Below are positions 1,671-18,162 of a stretch of 23,715 nt of DNA, in pieces (positions within the stretch are counted from its first letter, which is position 1; the number at the start of each line of letters is the position of its first letter). The DNA is from a virus. The notes beneath the pieces are model-generated. The model ran no database searches, was not told the origin of the DNA, and saw only the letters and a list, made by a program, of their open reading frames with translations. Made by a program: the position numbers and the translations under genes. Location of the stretch: positions 1-23,715 of IMG/VR virus record IMGVR_UViG_3300014720_000187; one strand, written 5' to 3'.

Positions 1671-2735
1671 ATGAAAAGCGTTCTAAATATAAAAAATATA
1701 GATCATACCAAACAACCATTATTCTTTGGCGAGGATCTTAATCTTCAGAGATATGATCGTTTCAAATATCCTATATTCTTTGAATTATTTAAGAAGCAAG
1801 AGGAGTTCTTCTGGTGGCCTCATGAAATTGCATTAAATAAAGATCGTGGAGATTATAGAGATCTTGCTGGTCAAGAAAGATTTGTATTCGATACTAATTT
1901 AAAATTCCAAACTCTTGGAGATAGTATGCTTTCTAGAAGCATTCATTCTCTTAAAGACTATGTCAGTAATCCAGAGCTCGAAATTTGCATGAATACTTGG
2001 CAAAGATTTGAAGGTATTCATAGTTACTCTTACTCTTATCTACTTAACAATGTTCATCCAGATGCCAGTAAGTTCTTTGATAGTATTATGGAAGATAAAG
2101 AAATTGTATCTCGCGCCGAACTAATTAGAAATAATTTTGATAAAATTCTTGGAGATGATGATAAAAAAGATTTAAAACAAAAGATTTTTGATTGTATTCT
2201 TTCGGTCAATGTTATGGAAGGGCTTGTATTTTATGCTAGTTTTGCTTGTTCATTCTACTTTGGATATCGTGGTAAAATGGAAGGTAATGCTAAGATTATT
2301 AAGTTTATTCAAAGAGATGAAGCTTTACATTTTGCAACAACTCAGAATTTAATTAAGATTCTAAGAGAAGAAGATAAAGAAGGTTTTACTTCTGTAGTAA
2401 AAAAAAGCGAAGATAAGATTTATGCGTTTTATGAACAAGCCGCGAAGAATGAAATTGAATGGGCAGAATATCTCTTTAGCAAAGGCTCTCTCTTGGGATT
2501 AAATGCAGAGGTTCTTGCTGGCTATTCTAAATGGCTTTGTGATGCTCGTTTACGATCATTAGGATATAAGAAAATTTTTAATCAAAAAGATAATCCTATC
2601 GCGGGATGGTTAGATAGTTATCTTGATAGCAGTAAAGTACAAGTCGCTCCTCAAGAAACAGAGATCTCAACATATAAAATTGGCGCAAGAAAAACAGATA
2701 TTTCTGATGATGATTTTGGCGATATGAAGCTATAA
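1671..2735 (+). CDS. nrdB: Class Ia ribonucleotide reductase small (beta) subunit
   Basis: Diiron-tyrosyl radical subunit that pairs with the upstream NrdA. At 354 aa it is a little shorter than E. coli NrdB. The diiron ligands can be placed: D84 (LGDSMLSR), E114 and H117 (FEGIHS), E183 (VMEGLVFYASFACSF), E217 and H220 (QRDEALH). The radical tyrosine is Y121, seven residues after E114 as in E. coli Y122. The C-terminus is acidic (DISDDDFGDMKL), as expected for the peptide that docks on NrdA. It starts 3 bp after the nrdA stop, with no clear Shine-Dalgarno between them, so translation is probably coupled. A 9-bp inverted repeat follows the stop at 2731-2757. Confidence 0.97.
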   Translation: MKSVLNIKNIDHTKQPLFFGEDLNLQRYDRFKYPIFFELFKKQEEFFWWPHEIALNKDRGDYRDLAGQERFVFDTNLKFQTLGDSMLSRSIHSLKDYVSNPELEICMNTWQRFEGIHSYSYSYLLNNVHPDASKFFDSIMEDKEIVSRAELIRNNFDKILGDDDKKDLKQKIFDCILSVNVMEGLVFYASFACSFYFGYRGKMEGNAKIIKFIQRDEALHFATTQNLIKILREEDKEGFTSVVKKSEDKIYAFYEQAAKNEIEWAEYLFSKGSLLGLNAEVLAGYSKWLCDARLRSLGYKKIFNQKDNPIAGWLDSYLDSSKVQVAPQETEISTYKIGARKTDISDDDFGDMKL

Positions 2736-2757
2736 TACAATCTAATAGTGTATTATA
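2731..2757. repeat. Perfect 9-bp inverted repeat at the nrdB 3' end
   Basis: TATAATACA at 2731-2739 and TGTATTATA at 2749-2757 are exact reverse complements around a 9-nt loop. It overlaps the nrdB stop and the AGTGTAT box of the next gene. It could be a weak RNA hairpin or an operator-like site; there is no GC-rich stem or clear U-tract for an intrinsic terminator. AT-rich repeats of this size can arise by chance. Confidence 0.45.
2747..2753 (+). promoter_or_regulatory. RGTGTAA-class box before the 66 aa gene
   Basis: AGTGTAT, one mismatch to AGTGTAA, followed by 8 nt and the GTG start at 2762. Same motif and spacing as at 2988, 18330 and others; proposed as the -10-like element of a phage-specific promoter class. 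Confidence 0.45.
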
Positions 2758-2761
2758 TAGT

Positions 2762-2962
2762 GTGATAGAAAATAAAAAAAAGAAAAAAGTTAATCAACTT
2801 AATATCAAAGAATGCGAATCTATACTTCATAGATTAGCTGGGCAAATCGAATGCAAATATTATCAGCATGTTTTAAAGCATTACAGAAGGCTTTTACCGC
2901 CTTTCTCTGCTTCAATCGACCTAGGCAAAGTCCCTAGCGATAATAATGCTACCTTGCCATAA
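2762..2962 (+). CDS. Small basic protein of unknown function
   Basis: 66 aa with a GTG start. I do not recognise a family. It opens with a lysine-rich stretch (ENKKKKKVNQ), then a helical, basic segment (ECESILHRLAGQIECKYYQHV and following residues) and ends in a low-structure tail (DLGKVPSDNNATLP). No membrane segment or signal peptide. Its start lies 8 nt after an AGTGTAT box, an arrangement shared with other genes here, which favours it being a real gene. No Shine-Dalgarno precedes the start. Confidence 0.55.
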   Translation: MIENKKKKKVNQLNIKECESILHRLAGQIECKYYQHVLKHYRRLLPPFSASIDLGKVPSDNNATLP

Positions 2963-2987
2963 TTTTAATTAAAAATATTAATCTATA

Positions 2988-2994
2988 AGTGTAA
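2988..2994 (+). promoter_or_regulatory. RGTGTAA-class box before the holin-like gene
   Basis: AGTGTAA followed by 8 nt (ATATATGT) and the ATG at 3003. No Shine-Dalgarno fits in the gap. An exact copy of the proposed phage-specific promoter element. Confidence 0.55.
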
Positions 2995-3002
2995 ATATAT
3001 GT

Positions 3003-3335
3003 ATGCATTTGGATTTAAATTCTTTATTTAATATAGTCCTAGGAGCATTAACCTTTTTAGGTGGATGGTTATTTACTAGAGTATTTTCGTTATTTGACAG
3101 ACAAGAAGACCTAATAAAAAATATAAATGATAAAACCTTTACGGATTTTATATCTTTAAGAAAAGAAGTGGAAGAAGAGAGCAGAAAACATCAACAAGAA
3201 ATAGCGGATTTAGCACTTAAAGTTAGCACTACTTATGTAACTAAAGAATCTTTTGAAGCTTATTTTGATAGAATTGAAGCTAAACTTGATCGTAATTTTG
3301 AAACTATACAACAACATTTAATGAATAAAAAATAA
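3003..3335 (+). CDS. Small membrane protein with coiled coil (holin/XhlA-like)
   Basis: 110 aa. One hydrophobic segment near the N-terminus (about residues 5-30, LFNIVLGALTFLGGWLFTRV) is followed by a long charged helical region (residues 35-108) with heptad-like spacing, suggesting a coiled coil facing the cytoplasm or periplasm. This layout is typical of phage haemolysin XhlA/BhlA-type holins or of small lysis accessory proteins, but it is not diagnostic. No endolysin is adjacent in the window, so a lysis role is inference only. It begins 8 nt after an exact AGTGTAA box. Confidence 0.7.
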   Translation: MHLDLNSLFNIVLGALTFLGGWLFTRVFSLFDRQEDLIKNINDKTFTDFISLRKEVEEESRKHQQEIADLALKVSTTYVTKESFEAYFDRIEAKLDRNFETIQQHLMNKK

Positions 3336-10027: not shown

Positions 10028-10438
10028 ATGAATAGATTTTCTATTGAAGATTTAGCTATGGAAATAGCTTTAAATGCTTCTAAAAGATCGGAAGATTTTT
10101 ATAAAAAAGTAGGGTGCGCTATCTTCAATAAAGATGGAAGATTACTCAGTATAGGATATAATGGCTTTGCTCCAAAACAAAATGTTCCAAATAAGATTTT
10201 AGCAAATCGGGACGAAAGAAGAAAATATATAATTCATGCAGAAGCAAATGCTCTTTCATGTATTTCCAGATATGAAAATCCAGAGCTGTTAGCTTGTACT
10301 CTTCTACCTTGCTCCTCTTGCGCTATAAATATAGCTTCGTATGGTATAAAAAAAGTTATATATAAAGAGGAATATACAAAAGATAAATTAGCGCATGATA
10401 TATTTAAATTTTATAAAATACAAATAGAGAAGCATTAA
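10028..10438 (+). CDS. Deoxycytidylate (dCMP)-type deaminase
   Basis: 136 aa cytidine/deoxycytidylate deaminase fold. Zinc site: HAEANAL (the His ligand and catalytic Glu) followed by PCSSC (two Cys ligands). N-terminal FSIEDLAMEIALNASKRSEDFYKKVGCAIF and GYNGF are typical of dCMP deaminase/ComEB proteins rather than of tRNA adenosine deaminases. Reaction: dCMP to dUMP plus ammonia, feeding thymidylate synthesis; fits the RNR and dNMP kinase in this window. At 136 aa it is shorter than T4 Cd and has no obvious allosteric insert. The start lies behind AT-rich sequence with a possible TATATT 7 nt before the ATG. The next gene begins 2 nt after its stop. Confidence 0.85.
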   Translation: MNRFSIEDLAMEIALNASKRSEDFYKKVGCAIFNKDGRLLSIGYNGFAPKQNVPNKILANRDERRKYIIHAEANALSCISRYENPELLACTLLPCSSCAINIASYGIKKVIYKEEYTKDKLAHDIFKFYKIQIEKH

Positions 10439-11721: not shown

Positions 11722-12264
11722 ATGGATGTAAGTCTATTCTTAAAGAAACATAAAGATATCCTTCATCTTGACGACCTATCTTTAGGTAAGGATGAATTAA
11801 CAGATTTTGCTTTTAATTTTTTCAAACATAGGCTTTTTTTTTACACACCTCAGAATAGCGTCTACATCGTAGAGGGTGTAAAAGGAGTAGTTTTATACAG
11901 GGAAAATAATAAACAAGTCCAATTATTTATAGTAGAACCAAACTCGGTTATTCCTTCGCATCATCATCCAGATGTAGATAGTTATGAGATGCTTTTATGC
12001 GGTATGGAATTTAATATTAATAATAAAATCGTACTACCCCTAAGATTTTCCAGATTAACAGATAAGAATAATCACCCATTAGGAGCAAGATATCTTTTGA
12101 GGGTCAAACCAAATGATCCTCATGGAGGAAAGTCTGGACCAAATGGAGGAGCCTTTTTATCAATACAGTGCTGGTTAAATGGTAAAATCCCCACAAGTGT
12201 TGGGGAAAATTGGGTTGGAGAAACTATGGGCGGAATACATCAATCTAAGGTGCTAAATAAATGA
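11722..12264 (+). CDS. Cupin-fold metal-binding protein
   Basis: 180 aa. Cupin motif 1 is visible as PSHHHPDVDSYEMLLCGMEF (two metal His, then the metal Glu followed by G), and motif 2 as VKPNDPHGGKSGPNGGAFLSI (P-x-x-PHGG supplying the third His). The core is flanked by N-terminal helices and a C-terminal WLNGKIPTSVGENWVGETMG segment. Single-domain cupins include dioxygenases, isomerases and epimerases, so substrate is unknown. It is the first gene of the operon with guaC (4-bp overlap: ATG at 12261, stop at 12264), the JAB/NlpC pair and the aminotransferase, so it may serve either small-molecule metabolism or virion assembly. Confidence 0.65.
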   Translation: MDVSLFLKKHKDILHLDDLSLGKDELTDFAFNFFKHRLFFYTPQNSVYIVEGVKGVVLYRENNKQVQLFIVEPNSVIPSHHHPDVDSYEMLLCGMEFNINNKIVLPLRFSRLTDKNNHPLGARYLLRVKPNDPHGGKSGPNGGAFLSIQCWLNGKIPTSVGENWVGETMGGIHQSKVLNK

Positions 12265-13367
12265 AAGAACAATTTAAAGAAGCGTTAGGATATGACGACA
12301 TATCTTTATTACCAAACTTTTCTAATATTGTATCAAGAAAGGAAGTATCAACAGTAACAAAAATTAGTAGGAATAAATATATTGATATTCCAATCATTCT
12401 GTCTCCAATGGACACGGTTTCCTCTGTTAAAACATGCATAAAGATAAATCAAATAGGTGGTGCTGGGGTGCTGCACAGATTCATGTCAATAGAGGATCAA
12501 AAGACAAAAGCGAAAGAGATTAAAGACAATAGTAATTTTTGTATAAATGCAATTGGTTTAAAGGATAGTTTTAATAGAATCGAAACTTTAAGTCCATATA
12601 CGGACATATTCTTTTTGGATACGGCAAATGGATTATCTATCCAAGTAGAAGATTTCTTGATAGCTTACAAACAATCTAATTTCACTCAAGATATTATCGT
12701 AGGCAATACATTAACCAAGCAAAGCGTTTATAGACTAGCCAATCTTAAATCTGATGGCTTTAGGCATTTAATTGGTCCTGGAAGTATGTGCCTTACTCAA
12801 ATGAAAACTGGAATTGGATGTCCTAGTGTTACTGGATTATATTACGCTTGGAAAGCTGTTAGAAATTGGCATCTTTCAAATTTAGATTATTTTAGGCATG
12901 AAATCCCAAAAGAAGAAAATAGACCCAGTATATTAGCTGATGGCGGTATAAGATATCCTAAAGATTTAGTTAAAGCAATCGCGAGCGGAGCAGATGCTGT
13001 TATCTGCGGGAAAATTTTTGCTGGATTAATCGATACAGTAGAAGAAAAAGACCTGATTAAAAAAGACGATAAATATTATGTTAAATATCGTGGAATGGCA
13101 AGTCAAGATGTCGTAGAAGATTACGATTTATATGATGGCACAAAGAAAAATTTATTTGTAGAAGGCGATAAAACATTAGTTGAAGTTTCGACAAAAACTA
13201 TAGAAGATATCGTCTATGATTTTGCTAATGGCTTAAGAAGCGCAATGAGTTATTTAGGATTTAGATCAATAGAAGAAATGAGGGGTGGATTGTGGGTAAA
13301 TAAAATTCAAGCCGTTAGAACTACTATCAATAATATGTATGAGGGTTTTGCTCATGGAAAAGATTGA
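12261..13367 (+). CDS. guaC: GMP reductase-like protein (IMPDH/GMPR family, no CBS domains)
   Basis: 368 aa TIM-barrel of the IMPDH/GMPR family. Catalytic loop GPGSMCLTQMKTGIGCPSVTG, with Cys177 and Thr179; GMP/IMP phosphate site ILADGGIRYPKDLVKAI (224-240) and GLRSAMSYLG (324-333). Three points favour GMP reductase over IMP dehydrogenase: LDTANG (120-124, ANG as in GMPR), no CBS insertion and GMPR-like length, and a flap reading EGDKTLVEVS (301-310), which aligns with GMPR EGKTV and lacks the Arg-Tyr of the IMPDH flap. Expected reaction: GMP + NADPH to IMP + NH3, supplying IMP to PurA at 16547. Clear family, direction inferred. The 3' end overlaps the next gene by 14 bp. Confidence 0.8.
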   Translation: MKEQFKEALGYDDISLLPNFSNIVSRKEVSTVTKISRNKYIDIPIILSPMDTVSSVKTCIKINQIGGAGVLHRFMSIEDQKTKAKEIKDNSNFCINAIGLKDSFNRIETLSPYTDIFFLDTANGLSIQVEDFLIAYKQSNFTQDIIVGNTLTKQSVYRLANLKSDGFRHLIGPGSMCLTQMKTGIGCPSVTGLYYAWKAVRNWHLSNLDYFRHEIPKEENRPSILADGGIRYPKDLVKAIASGADAVICGKIFAGLIDTVEEKDLIKKDDKYYVKYRGMASQDVVEDYDLYDGTKKNLFVEGDKTLVEVSTKTIEDIVYDFANGLRSAMSYLGFRSIEEMRGGLWVNKIQAVRTTINNMYEGFAHGKD

Positions 13368-14109: not shown

Positions 14110-14849
14110 AATTTGAACAAGACATCTTAGACAAGATAAGAAGGCATTGCCTTTTAAAACCAAATCAAGAGTCATGCGGCCTCATATACAATGTAGATAA
14201 TCAAGATAAAGTTTATTTCTGTAAAAATATAAGCTCAAATCATAAAAAAAATTTCTTGATAGACCCAGAAGACTATAGATTTTGTTCGATTAAAGGAGAA
14301 GTATTATGTTGCTATCATTCTCATATAAATAATAGAGGATTTTCTTATGAAGATATATATAATAGCTTAAAGTCTGAAATACCATATTTATTATATAATC
14401 TTAAACAAGATGAATTTTTCTTTTTTGATCCTATAAAAGATCAAACATATAAGAAGTATATAGGATTAGATTATAAGAATGGCGTAAATGATTGTTGGTC
14501 AACTATTGAAAGATACATTTCTGAAGAATTGAAGATTCCAATAGCAGATCCAGAATCCAAAAGATCTGAAAAACCAGATGAAAACCTTTCTTGGGCATAT
14601 GAAGATAGAAAGGAATGGATGAAAAAAATGAATTTAGAAAAAATAATTCCAAATAGCATAAAGGATTTAAAAGAAAATGATATATTAGTTTTAAAAAGTT
14701 TAAACGAAAAAATTCCTACATCTGGCGCGATATTACTTAAAAATAAATTAATACTTCATCAAAGAGATCATGATATTTCTAAAATAGAATGCCTTAGAAA
14801 GGCCCATTTTAAAATGATATGTTATATAGGAAGATTCAAAAGTGAATAA
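14106..14849 (+). CDS. JAB/JAMM plus NlpC/P60 protein, copy 2, NlpC His replaced
   Basis: 247 aa paralogue of the gene before it, same domain order. The JAB half is intact (ESCGLIY with E22, H71-S-H73, S80, D83). In the NlpC/P60 half Cys130 (VNDCWS) and the distal His218 (LILHQR) remain, but the catalytic His position reads PTSGAILL: Ser206 where copy 1 has His211. The peptidase half is therefore probably inactive or altered, while the JAB half may work. Both copies share DxEDYxxxxxxGE, YLLYN and LRKAH blocks, showing an old tandem duplication rather than a recent one. ATG overlaps the previous stop (ATGA); its 3' end overlaps the GTG start of the aminotransferase by 8 bp. Confidence 0.8.
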   Translation: MKFEQDILDKIRRHCLLKPNQESCGLIYNVDNQDKVYFCKNISSNHKKNFLIDPEDYRFCSIKGEVLCCYHSHINNRGFSYEDIYNSLKSEIPYLLYNLKQDEFFFFDPIKDQTYKKYIGLDYKNGVNDCWSTIERYISEELKIPIADPESKRSEKPDENLSWAYEDRKEWMKKMNLEKIIPNSIKDLKENDILVLKSLNEKIPTSGAILLKNKLILHQRDHDISKIECLRKAHFKMICYIGRFKSE

Positions 14850-16071
14850 TAAAATTTTACAAAAGTCATTAAAGAATAAGATTAGTGGAGCATTTTATAT
14901 GCCATTATCTTTTGATACGGCAAAAGGATGCATCATAAAGGATATAGAAGGAAACAAGTATATAGATTTGTCTTCTGGATATGGAGTCGCAAACATAGGA
15001 TGGCAAAACGACGAAATGCTTCAGCATCAAATTAAATGCATTAATAAATCAAACTATGCCCCACCATGGCTAGCTACAAAAGAAGCAGACGATTTAGCAA
15101 CAAAATTAATTTCTTTTTTTCCTAATGCTAATTATAAATGTTTTCGTACAACTGGCGGAGCAAATGGAAATGAAGTTGCAATATCCGTATTTTATAATAT
15201 TAATAAATCTAATATAGGTACTTTCGAAAGATCCTATCACGGATGGAGTCAAGCGACAATTGGGATGGGGGAAATCAAAAAATATAAAATGCCTTTTGTA
15301 AAAAAAGAATATGAATCTAAAAAAATACCACCGCCAAACAAATCTTCATTAGAAGAAGTTGATTTATTTTTTAAAAAAAATCAAGATGTAAAAATATTTA
15401 TAGCAGAACCAGTTTTGGGTAGTGGGGGAGTGATTGTACCAGATAAAGGATATTGGAAAAAATTTTATAAAATATGCCAAGAAAATGAAGTATTTTTAAT
15501 TATGGATGAATGCATAACTGGGTTTGGCCGAGTAGGGAAAATGCTTGCTTGTCATCATTACGATATTGAACCAGATGCAATTATATTAGGGAAAGGCATA
15601 TCTTCTGGTTATAGTTCTATCGGGGCAGTCTTGGTAAAAGAAGAACATTTAAAAAATTATAGATTTGGAGATGTATCGGCAACTTTTTCATGGACACCGT
15701 TTGCTTGTAGTGTAGTTTTAAAGAATATAGAAATCATTGAAAAAAATAAGCTTTGTGAAAAATCGAAAATCATAGGCGAATTATTTAAAATTAAATTGAC
15801 AAATATTTTTAAAGAATTAAATTTTGATAAATATGAATTACGCATTATTGGATCAATGATCGGGCTACAATTTTTTAACAAAGAAAATCAGCCAGACATT
15901 TATCTTCATGGAAGACTGCTTTATGAATTTGCAAAATCTAATATAATCATATGCACATCAGGAGATAATGATTCTATTATATTTTTACCACCATTATCAA
16001 TTGATGAAAAGACGCTTAACTTATCAATAAGTAGAATAAAAAAGATATTTCAAACCAAATTTATTTATTGA
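14842..16071 (+). CDS. PLP-dependent class III aminotransferase
   Basis: 409 aa, full length for the family (ArgD/GabT/BioA/HemL type). Visible PLP site: TTGGANGNEVA (103-113, cofactor phosphate loop), YHGW (132-135, ring-stacking), AEPVLGSGG (188-196), LIMDECITGFGRVGK (219-233, D222 contacts the pyridine N) and ILGKGISSGY with Schiff-base K251. The GTG start overlaps the upstream stop. Substrate not readable. Known phage roles for PLP enzymes include building hypermodified thymines; sugar-amine synthesis and glutamate-semialdehyde-type reactions are alternatives. It is the last gene of the operon 11722-16071. Confidence 0.85.
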   Translation: MNNKILQKSLKNKISGAFYMPLSFDTAKGCIIKDIEGNKYIDLSSGYGVANIGWQNDEMLQHQIKCINKSNYAPPWLATKEADDLATKLISFFPNANYKCFRTTGGANGNEVAISVFYNINKSNIGTFERSYHGWSQATIGMGEIKKYKMPFVKKEYESKKIPPPNKSSLEEVDLFFKKNQDVKIFIAEPVLGSGGVIVPDKGYWKKFYKICQENEVFLIMDECITGFGRVGKMLACHHYDIEPDAIILGKGISSGYSSIGAVLVKEEHLKNYRFGDVSATFSWTPFACSVVLKNIEIIEKNKLCEKSKIIGELFKIKLTNIFKELNFDKYELRIIGSMIGLQFFNKENQPDIYLHGRLLYEFAKSNIIICTSGDNDSIIFLPPLSIDEKTLNLSISRIKKIFQTKFIY

Positions 16072-16312: not shown

Positions 16313-16563
16313 TGGAACAAGAATCTAAAAAAATAGAATTTACATCTGAAAATGTAAGTTTATATGTTCAGCCGTATATGAACGGTCCAATTAGAAGACT
16401 TGCGCCAAAGATGCAGAGGAATGATTTGTGCCCAGTTAATGATGTAAAATTTAAAAAATGCTGTGGCCAAGACGGTTCAAATTTTTGTAAAAAAATGCTT
16501 TCTGATTACTTAAATGAATTGCAAGAAGCTCAAAATAAATTAAAAAATGATCAGAGCGGTTGA
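16312..16563 (+). CDS. Small protein with degenerate SEC-C zinc motif
   Basis: 83 aa. Residues about 36-53 read RNDLCPVNDVKFKKCCGQ, clearly the SEC-C motif (RNDPCPCGSGKKYKKCCG) found at the SecA C-terminus and in many small proteins. The second Cys of CxC is Val, leaving three ligands (C, then CC), so zinc binding may be weakened or use another residue. The C-terminus is helical (SDYLNELQEAQNKLKND). SEC-C domains bind SecB or ribosomes in known cases; here the role is unknown. Starts at the base where the previous gene stops and overlaps purA by 17 bp. Confidence 0.7.
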   Translation: MEQESKKIEFTSENVSLYVQPYMNGPIRRLAPKMQRNDLCPVNDVKFKKCCGQDGSNFCKKMLSDYLNELQEAQNKLKNDQSG

Positions 16564-17539
16564 TGTTATATTCGGATTAGCTTGGGGCGATGAGGGTAAG
16601 GGTAAGATAAGTAATGCAATATCTAAAGATTATGATATAGTTTGTCGCTGGAATGGTGGACCAAATGCGGGTCATACAGTTTATTTAAATGACAAAAAAT
16701 ATAAAACACACATTATCCCTTGTGGAGTATTTCAAAATAAGCTTAGTATAATCGGGCCAAATTGCGTAGTAAATGTAGATAAATTTTTTGATGAGATAGA
16801 TTATCTTAAAAAAGAAGGATTCGATACCTCTTTGATTAAAATTAGTCCTAAAGCTCATATAATTACTCATAAGCACATTCAATATGATCTTCAAATTCTC
16901 AAAAAGAAACTTGGCACAACAGGTCAAGGCATAGCCCCTGCATATAGCGATAAAATGTTGAGAACTGGTAAGCTTGCTAGAGATTATATTGATAAACAAT
17001 ATCTTTGGGATGGTAGTTTACATGGAGATATACTTTGCGAAGGGGCGCAGAGTTTTTGGCTTGATATAAATTATGGAGAGTATCCATATGTTACCAGTAG
17101 CGAAACACTGCCATACTCTGCATGTTCATTAGGCTTTTCTCCTAAAAAGATCAGACAAATTATAGGAGTAGCTAAGATTTATGATACGAAAAGTGGTGTA
17201 GATCCACTTTTTCCAGAGAGTCTTTGGGAAGATCCAGAATTAAATTATATAATTGAGATCGGAGAAGAATTTGGCTCTACAACTGGAAGAAAAAGAATCG
17301 TGAATTGGTTAAATCTAAATAAATTAATTACAGCGGTTAAAATATCTGGCACAACTAAACTAATAGTTAATAAATGCGATGTTTTAGAAAAAATTCATAC
17401 TTATAAACTTTTTCAAAATAATAATCTTTATAAATTTAATACAATGCAATCTATGCAAAGTTTTATAAAAAGCCAGTTAAATTACAGTCTAAATGATTTT
17501 GTCGAAATTTTGTTTTCTGGAAATAAATCAGTTATTTAA
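16547..17539 (+). CDS. purA: Adenylosuccinate synthetase, short archaeal/phage-type form
   Basis: 330 aa, about 100 shorter than E. coli PurA and close to the archaeal and phage PurA/PurZ forms. Reaction: IMP + Asp + GTP to adenylosuccinate. Motifs: GDEGKGK (14-20, catalytic D15), NAGHT (40-44, catalytic H43), GTTGQGIAPAY (123-133), EGAQSFWLDINYGEYPYVTSS (165-185), EFGSTTGRKR (241-250, substrate Arg pair) and NKCD (275-278), the guanine-specificity motif. Retention of the catalytic Asp and of NKxD argues for IMP and GTP, i.e. PurA, rather than PurZ (the 2-aminoadenine-genome enzyme, in which, as I recall, that Asp is replaced). No DatZ or MazZ gene is in this window. Works with the GMP reductase-like protein at 12261. 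Confidence 0.9.
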   Translation: MIRAVDVIFGLAWGDEGKGKISNAISKDYDIVCRWNGGPNAGHTVYLNDKKYKTHIIPCGVFQNKLSIIGPNCVVNVDKFFDEIDYLKKEGFDTSLIKISPKAHIITHKHIQYDLQILKKKLGTTGQGIAPAYSDKMLRTGKLARDYIDKQYLWDGSLHGDILCEGAQSFWLDINYGEYPYVTSSETLPYSACSLGFSPKKIRQIIGVAKIYDTKSGVDPLFPESLWEDPELNYIIEIGEEFGSTTGRKRIVNWLNLNKLITAVKISGTTKLIVNKCDVLEKIHTYKLFQNNNLYKFNTMQSMQSFIKSQLNYSLNDFVEILFSGNKSVI

Positions 17540-17542
17540 ACT

Positions 17543-17931
17543 TGGACCTGCTCGGAGTTGAACCGAGGTCTTTTAGAAATATAAATTAAAATACTACAAG
17601 TTTAGTTTATCTTAAATTTTAGCTTTGTATAGATAATAAACAAACATACTAGGCGTATTCTATCTTGAATATTATTATTTAAAGAATAGAAAAACTATTA
17701 AATAATAAACATCTAATAACGCAATTATCCAATAGATGTGTCATGGTAATCACGCTGTAGAACTTAGGCTACAGAGGCGGTCTCTTCGACTAAAGAAACT
17801 CTAGCAGAAAGATGACCTTTGTATTTAGCTGTTTTGGCAGTTAATACTTTTAAGGCTTTTTAAAGAGTCCCACCTAAACCTCTACTTGCATTTTAATTCT
17901 AACCACTAAAATCGAAACCAAATTCAGGCCC
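17543..17931 (-). ncRNA. ssrA: Transfer-messenger RNA (tmRNA), phage-encoded
   Basis: 389 nt on the minus strand. Acceptor stem GGGCCTG (17931-17925) pairs with CAGGTCC (7 bp, one G-U), then discriminator A; CCA is not encoded. T-arm CTCGG-TTCAACT-CCGAG. The D-analogue GGTTTCGA follows the 5' end as in tmRNA. A long H2 helix forms between the two ends (TTTTAG/CTAAAA, ATTAAAAT/ATTTTAAT, GCAAG/CTTGT). Pseudoknot PK1: AGAG/CTCT with AGGTTT/AAGCCT. The tag frame starts at GCC (17838) with TTAACT upstream (A at -4) and ends in TAA (17764-17766): 24 residues, starting AKTAKYK and ending EETASVA. The stop sits in the loop of hairpin CTGTAG/CTACAG. AT-rich PK-like helices follow. Convergent with purA, 3 bp from its stop. 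Confidence 0.93.
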
Positions 17932-17952: not shown

Positions 17953-17981
17953 ATAATACATTACATTTAGATTTTTTTCAA
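17953..17981 (-). promoter_or_regulatory. Sigma70-type promoter for the tmRNA
   Basis: Minus strand TTGAAA (17981-17976), 17-bp spacer, TATTAT (17958-17953). The expected start is about 14-16 nt before the mature 5' G at 17931, leaving a short leader for RNase P to remove. Divergent from the small ORF at 18001. Confidence 0.7.
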
Positions 17982-18000: not shown

Positions 18001-18162
18001 ATGGATAAGATAATTTATTTATTAGATCAAATAATAGAAAAGAATATTTGGGAAGACTCCTTAACAAAAAAGTCTGGAGACACAGGAGATAACTGGAATG
18101 TTCATCATCTTAAACTTCTAAAATCTTTAATATTAGAGGAGTCAAAAAATGCCAAAAACTAA
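18001..18162 (+). CDS. Small protein of unknown function, 53 aa
   Basis: MDKIIYLLDQIIEKNIWEDSL, a short linker (KKSGDTGDNW), then a second helix (HHLKLLKSLILEESKNAKN): a likely helical hairpin. No family recognised. Support for a real gene: a TATAAT box just upstream, and a Shine-Dalgarno inside its 3' end that serves the next small ORF, which overlaps it by 14 bp. Confidence 0.5.
   Translation: MDKIIYLLDQIIEKNIWEDSLTKKSGDTGDNWNVHHLKLLKSLILEESKNAKN

Follow-up and report, generated by a model that had tools for sequence, protein, structure and literature searches.

A phage-encoded one-piece tmRNA gene with a long conserved tag in a group of uncultured phages

A gene for tmRNA next to purA on a viral DNA fragment raises the question of whether it is a working gene of the phage and, if so, how much of ribosome rescue the phage would supply for itself. 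The window analysed here, which is the whole stretch of DNA, is a 23,715-base (23.7 kb) fragment of an uncultured virus from a record classed as virus (G000). ARAGORN places a one-piece tmRNA at exactly the coordinates given by a sequence-only reading of this DNA (17543-17931, minus strand) and calls no other RNA gene in the window. When the whole window was scanned with cmscan against Rfam 15, RF00023 was the only family to reach its gathering threshold, with a match at 17542-17931 on the minus strand that covers the full model (1-374) and scores 110.8 bits against a cut-off of 47 bits (E 7.4e-43). Both programs, which that reading had proposed as its check, detect the tmRNA on the minus strand, with a score well above the cut-off. 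Since the gene order is standard and the RF00023 match is contiguous, the gene is not circularly permuted. CCA is absent from the gene, and in most copies AG comes after the discriminator A. The parts that had been named from the sequence (7-bp acceptor stem, T-arm, D-analogue, long H2 helix, PK1, tag frame and a stop codon in a hairpin loop) were all found, and PK2-PK4 were found as well (Table 1). The gene had also been described as antisense to the flanking genes, which is correct as to strand but not as to overlap, because it lies clear of both the purA stop codon (17539) and the small plus-strand ORF that starts at 18001.

Table 1. Features of the tmRNA locus; coordinates are those of the window unless a locus is named
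Feature	Position	Strand	Basis or remarks
One-piece tmRNA gene (ssrA), 389 nt, CCA not encoded	17543..17931	-	ARAGORN, RF00023, 40 distinct copies
Acceptor stem, 5' strand GGGCCUG	17925..17931	-	Pairs with 17544-17550 (CAGGUCC); G3-U70 wobble
Helix H2, 5' strand	17884..17911	-	Pairs with 17571-17601; helices 1-3, 98-100% of cells paired
Pseudoknot PK1	17850..17883	-	Helices 4 and 5
Tag frame, 24 codons + UAA, AKTAKYKGHLSARVSLVEETASVA then stop	17764..17838	-	ARAGORN; 40 copies show third-position bias and an excess of synonymous changes; codon table
Hairpin inside tag coding sequence, stem GCUAGAG/CUUUAGU + outer pairs	17779..17817	-	Helices 6 and 7
Helix H5, CUGUAG/CUACAG, stop UAA (17764-17766) in loop	17755..17774	-	Helix 8; 40/40 copies
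Pseudoknot PK2	17709..17754	-	Helices 9 and 10
Pseudoknot PK3	17658..17708	-	Helices 11-13
Pseudoknot PK4	17605..17654	-	Helices 14 and 15
T-arm, 5-bp stem, loop UUCAACU	17551..17567	-	Both-side changes at 5/5 pairs, 99.3% paired
Putative sigma70-type promoter, TTGAAA-17-TATTAT	17953..17981	-	-10 ends 21 nt before tmRNA; backed by relatives only
purA-like adenylosuccinate synthetase gene	16547..17539	+	PF00709 5.5e-81, NCBIfam; convergent, ends 3 nt from tmRNA 3' end
Small ORF (53 aa)	18001..18162	+	Divergent neighbour; similar to ORF at same place in L094
HNH/EndoVII-like endonuclease ORF	L009:12487-13083, L131:2501-3097 and 18 more loci	Same as tmRNA	Protein scan; absent from window

Relatives were collected by a search with the PurA protein, which gave 80 viral loci, and with a 22-base piece of the tag region, which gave 12. 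Counting the window copy, ARAGORN called 40 distinct tmRNAs of this type, and the other copies are 71-88% identical to that of the window. RF00023 scores above its cut-off in 27 of 29 larger related records. The window-type tag is present in 25 of these 29 records, so this tmRNA is near-constant in the uncultured phage group, and two more records carry a different tmRNA (G024, with the tag ANESLMAVAA, and G025, with another RF00023 tmRNA that ARAGORN missed). The tmRNA is often only a few kilobases from purA and may have either orientation, and its position varies, since no tmRNA lies within reach at 50 of the 80 purA loci, none of which exceeds about 21 kb. That the gene is phage-encoded, as had been proposed, is borne out by the virus record and by the retention of the same tmRNA among related phage records. 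No homologous tmRNA was found by DNA similarity in annotated phages or plasmids, and a search of 50,697 phage records gave no nucleotide relative, the sole match being one of 72 nt at 76% to a Campylobacter phage. Other kinds of tmRNA occur in two PurA-bearing phage records that are less closely related (L112:1501-1860 and L119:1303-1739); that of L112 also has the tag ANESLMAVAA, and positions 2646-3095 of this record match a group I intron.

The pattern of substitutions among the copies indicates that the RNA fold is maintained. The 40 distinct copies keep all seven acceptor pairs, with compensatory changes at pairs 5 and 6, and pair 3 is an invariant G-U. The G3-U70 pair is the identity element recognized by alanyl-tRNA synthetase (AlaRS). 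The D-arm analogue GGUUUCGA (expected GGNUUCGA) aligns to the RF00023 consensus and is kept in all rows of alignment A1 but one. Pairs were counted over 27 aligned sequences on the classical tmRNA fold with four pseudoknots, written by hand; standard pairs occupy 96.6% of 2943 cells (27 sequences, 109 pairs) and both-side changes occur at 37 of the 109 pairs, the sequences being related copies whose counts are not independent events. The covariation score for this fold is 0.270, compared with 0.132 +/- 0.005 for shuffled alignments and 0.044-0.072 when pairing partners were slid by 1-3 columns. RNAalifold, used without pseudoknots, returned 31 pairs with both-side changes, and the fold of the single strand is more stable than those of 100 dinucleotide shuffles (z -3.7). 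Compensatory changes occur in H2, the T-arm and all four pseudoknots. The weakest helix is stem 2 of PK1, which is 80% paired and has one mismatch in each of two sublineages, while covariation says little about H5 because its pairs hardly vary.

The tag runs from a GCC resume codon to UAA and has SVA as its C-terminal residues, in keeping with the small or hydrophobic ending expected of a tmRNA tag. Pairwise differences among the 40 copies at codon positions 1, 2 and 3 number 1013, 1177 and 4187, respectively, and tag codon differences are synonymous in 3715 cases versus non-synonymous in 1707, where random single changes on the window tag are expected to give 56:160. From this third-position bias and synonymous excess it appears that the tag is translated and selected, and the 24-codon frame evolves, by these measures, as coding sequence. 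The entire 24-residue tag is nearly invariant among the copies, its end included. Within the coding sequence lies an additional hairpin (columns 117-155 of the 27-sequence alignment), in which codon 12 pairs with codon 16 through their third bases (T-A, A-T or C-G) in 38 of 40 copies; the Fisher value for this covariation ignores shared ancestry and is indicative only. The tag sequence was not found in the literature. Tag length alone is not new, as other long tags occur in chlamydiae and mycoplasmas. The majority of bacterial tags have LAA, or a sequence close to it, at the C-terminus, and it is the final residues that ClpX recognizes; the -SVA ending is compatible with this.

The sequence-only reading had assigned the gene its own sigma70-type promoter. 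Judged from the window alone that assignment was rejected, since promoter-like sites there are at chance level (7 found versus 7.0 expected), and it was accepted only after comparison with relatives. A promoter scoring at least 9 of 12 ends 14-25 nt upstream of the tmRNA in 25 of 41 copies, compared with 2.7 +/- 1.5 in Markov controls, and most of the remaining copies have TTGCCA or a close variant, a 17-nt spacer and a TATAAT that ends 28-29 nt upstream. The recurring pairs have a TTG-type -35 and a spacing of 16-18 nt, the -10 ends 17-29 nt upstream of the tmRNA in the relatives that keep the pair, and a leader AGTTC(T/A)TT is common to both promoter types. A putative sigma70-like promoter is thus conserved across the relatives.

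The complete anatomy, selected tag, compensatory changes, conservation across the phage group and conserved promoter together make it very probable that this one-piece tmRNA gene (ssrA) of the phage is functional and, transcribed from its own promoter, would perform ordinary trans-translation with host proteins. The earlier suggestion that the phage supplies its own ribosome rescue is borne out for the RNA half only, as SmpB (PF01668) was detected neither in the window nor in 26 relatives' records of up to 177 kb (27 records, all fragments), whereas control genomes matched. Given that result in fragments, host SmpB is probably needed, and most likely the phage would supply the RNA only and borrow SmpB, AlaRS, the CCA-adding enzyme and a protease from the host. 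From the sequence we infer expression, charging, SmpB use, timing, tagging, proteolysis and benefit as follows. Transcription by host RNA polymerase would start at the sigma70-like promoter, and the transcript would be trimmed by a 3' nuclease and host RNase P, completed at its 3' end by the host CCA-adding enzyme and charged by host alanyl-tRNA synthetase. With host SmpB the tmRNA would then enter ribosomes that have stalled on mRNAs lacking a stop codon, a situation expected to be frequent while host mRNA is degraded during infection. The nascent chain would receive alanine and the phage tag, the ribosome would be freed at UAA, and a host protease, for example ClpXP, may recognize the C-terminal -VA and degrade the tagged product. 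The phage would gain in that ribosomes are kept free for its own translation in infection.

It counts against this explanation that the tag ends in -SVA and not the usual -LAA and that SmpB was not found in the fragment records. It is possible that the phage tmRNA mainly interferes with or re-targets rescue, competing with host tmRNA for SmpB and swapping in a phage tag that is degraded differently, which would give rescued proteins another fate. Such a role would fit the near-invariance of all 24 tag residues, rather than just the end, and the -SVA terminus, but the coding part, the resume-codon context and the stop codon are all kept, which would be needless for a pure decoy, and conservation of the tag may partly stem from its internal hairpin. 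Moreover, -VA is still a plausible ClpX signal; an engineered LVA variant of the tag is degraded. Interference or re-targeting as the main role is therefore considered unlikely.

A passive origin has to be weighed as well, because integration commonly takes place at host ssrA and prophages can contain ssrA fragments (PMC9004378), so that the locus could be a non-functional piece of host ssrA left by recombination or an integration-site scar. This reading is already contradicted by the substitution pattern: the gene is complete, with compensatory changes in the four pseudoknots, H2 and the T-arm and coding selection on the tag, and it is kept in most related records; a relic is accordingly very improbable. 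The metabolic genes in the window (purA, IMP dehydrogenase, ribonucleotide reductase and aminotransferase) might suggest instead that the DNA is bacterial and the tmRNA that of the host, a reading to which we give almost no credence. G000 has been classified as viral, terminase is present in relatives of up to 172 kb, and NrdA of the window matches phage families, its closest match among phages being Pelagibacter phage Mosig (55%), though NrdA is often exchanged. In addition, a search for the start of the tag in about 85,000 bacterial and archaeal species (GTDB) gave two unrelated matches, neither with an ARAGORN RNA gene. TerL of the relative G020 is about 25% identical to that of isolates, too distant to name a family or host, and a search with capsid Gp23 picked up a single relative, the distant G025.

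An endonuclease ORF, absent from the window, lies on the same strand 22-92 nt downstream of the tmRNA in about half of the relatives. Its protein is up to about 200 aa long and matches phage endonuclease families (phrog_3322, 9.5e-24), with no match to a Pfam family. The tmRNA is directly upstream in 27 of 28 endonuclease copies (ARAGORN missed two of these tmRNAs), and the remaining copy, L020, runs into the contig end. A separate protein scan of viral_contigs placed a tmRNA 42-69 nt upstream in 19 of 19 loci, many of which are the same contigs. Most copies also have, between tmRNA and endonuclease, a short piece that resembles a tRNA or tmRNA 3' half, beginning at the T-loop, e.g., AGTAAACGATTCCCTTCGGCTCCA. 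Such T-loop-type remnants, scored by eye and pattern and uncorrected for ancestry, were found in 20 of 24 copies with the endonuclease gene versus 1 of 16 without it. They lie in the first 40 nt past the tmRNA 3' end (e.g., L013, L002 and L018), and some end in GGCTCCA or TAGCTCCA, fitting a tmRNA end with G3-U70. By its placement the gene looks like a putative free-standing homing endonuclease attached to the tmRNA locus, which suggests that phage tmRNA genes are also targets of mobile elements. A bolder proposal, which is put forward only tentatively and is more doubtful than not, is that the phage-specific structured 24-residue -SVA tag gives rescued proteins an unusual fate and that the tmRNA locus has a parasite of its own, a homing endonuclease associated with the 3'-end remnants derived from the T-loop.

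That tmRNA genes are known in only some phages, as the sequence-only reading stated, agrees with a 2021 count of 402 among 18,146 genomes (about 2%), with 133 unique structures (PMC9004378). Because phage tmRNAs are already known, the window copy is an additional case and not a new kind. In its full match to the bacterial one-piece ssrA model, its G3-U70 acceptor stem, T-arm, H2, PK1, tag, H5 with UAA, and PK2-PK4 it resembles bacterial tmRNA, from which it differs in the extra covarying tag hairpin, AT-rich helices and unencoded CCA. Its tag of 24 residues also differs from the commonest tmRNA tag length of 10 aa (PMC11915505). Mycobacteriophages (Bxz1, Catera, Wildcat and DS6A) and Bacillus phage G likewise carry tmRNAs (PMC4131195), that of Wildcat being very highly expressed (PMC7474061), whereas the window tmRNA lacks a nucleotide relative in the phage records searched. 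B. elkanii phages with tmRNA have also been described (PMC12656738). The Melnitz-like methylophages are, similarly, large aquatic phages with NrdA/NrdB, and among phages the NrdA of the window is closest to pelagimyophage NrdA; their tmRNA, however, is two-piece (permuted) (PMC9004378), and that of the window is one-piece, with different neighbours and no riboswitch match in the window. Huge phages encode tmRNA together with SmpB (PMC7162821) and share with this group the phage-encoded parts of translation rescue, but no SmpB was found in the fragments of this group. No description was found of a long conserved -SVA tag with an internal hairpin, or of an HNH-type endonuclease only just downstream of this tmRNA. 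Selection on both RNA structure and tag across a large group of uncultured phages would imply that some large phages benefit from encoding ribosome rescue, and with the alignment of 40 copies the role of the tag can be tested.

The neighbouring PurA is short (330 aa) and retains the WGDEGKGK motif. It was also considered as PurZ (2-aminoadenine), and PurA is preferred because the motif is kept and the score is 103 against a PurZ cut-off of 300. A second purine gene accompanies purA in the window, encoding a 368-aa protein of the IMPDH/GMP reductase family (12261-13367). A class-III aminotransferase (14842-16071) and a cupin-like PCO_ADO-related protein (11722-12264) are unusual auxiliary genes for a phage, and the best NCBIfam match of a dCMP-deaminase-like protein (10028-10438), at 1.3e-17, is to 'anti-phage dCTP deaminase' but falls far short of the cut-off for that family. 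Many related loci, not including the window, have a conserved tRNA-Ser gene with anticodon ACU (A34; e.g., L003:10997-11086); bacteria use GCU, and ACU is very unusual among them.
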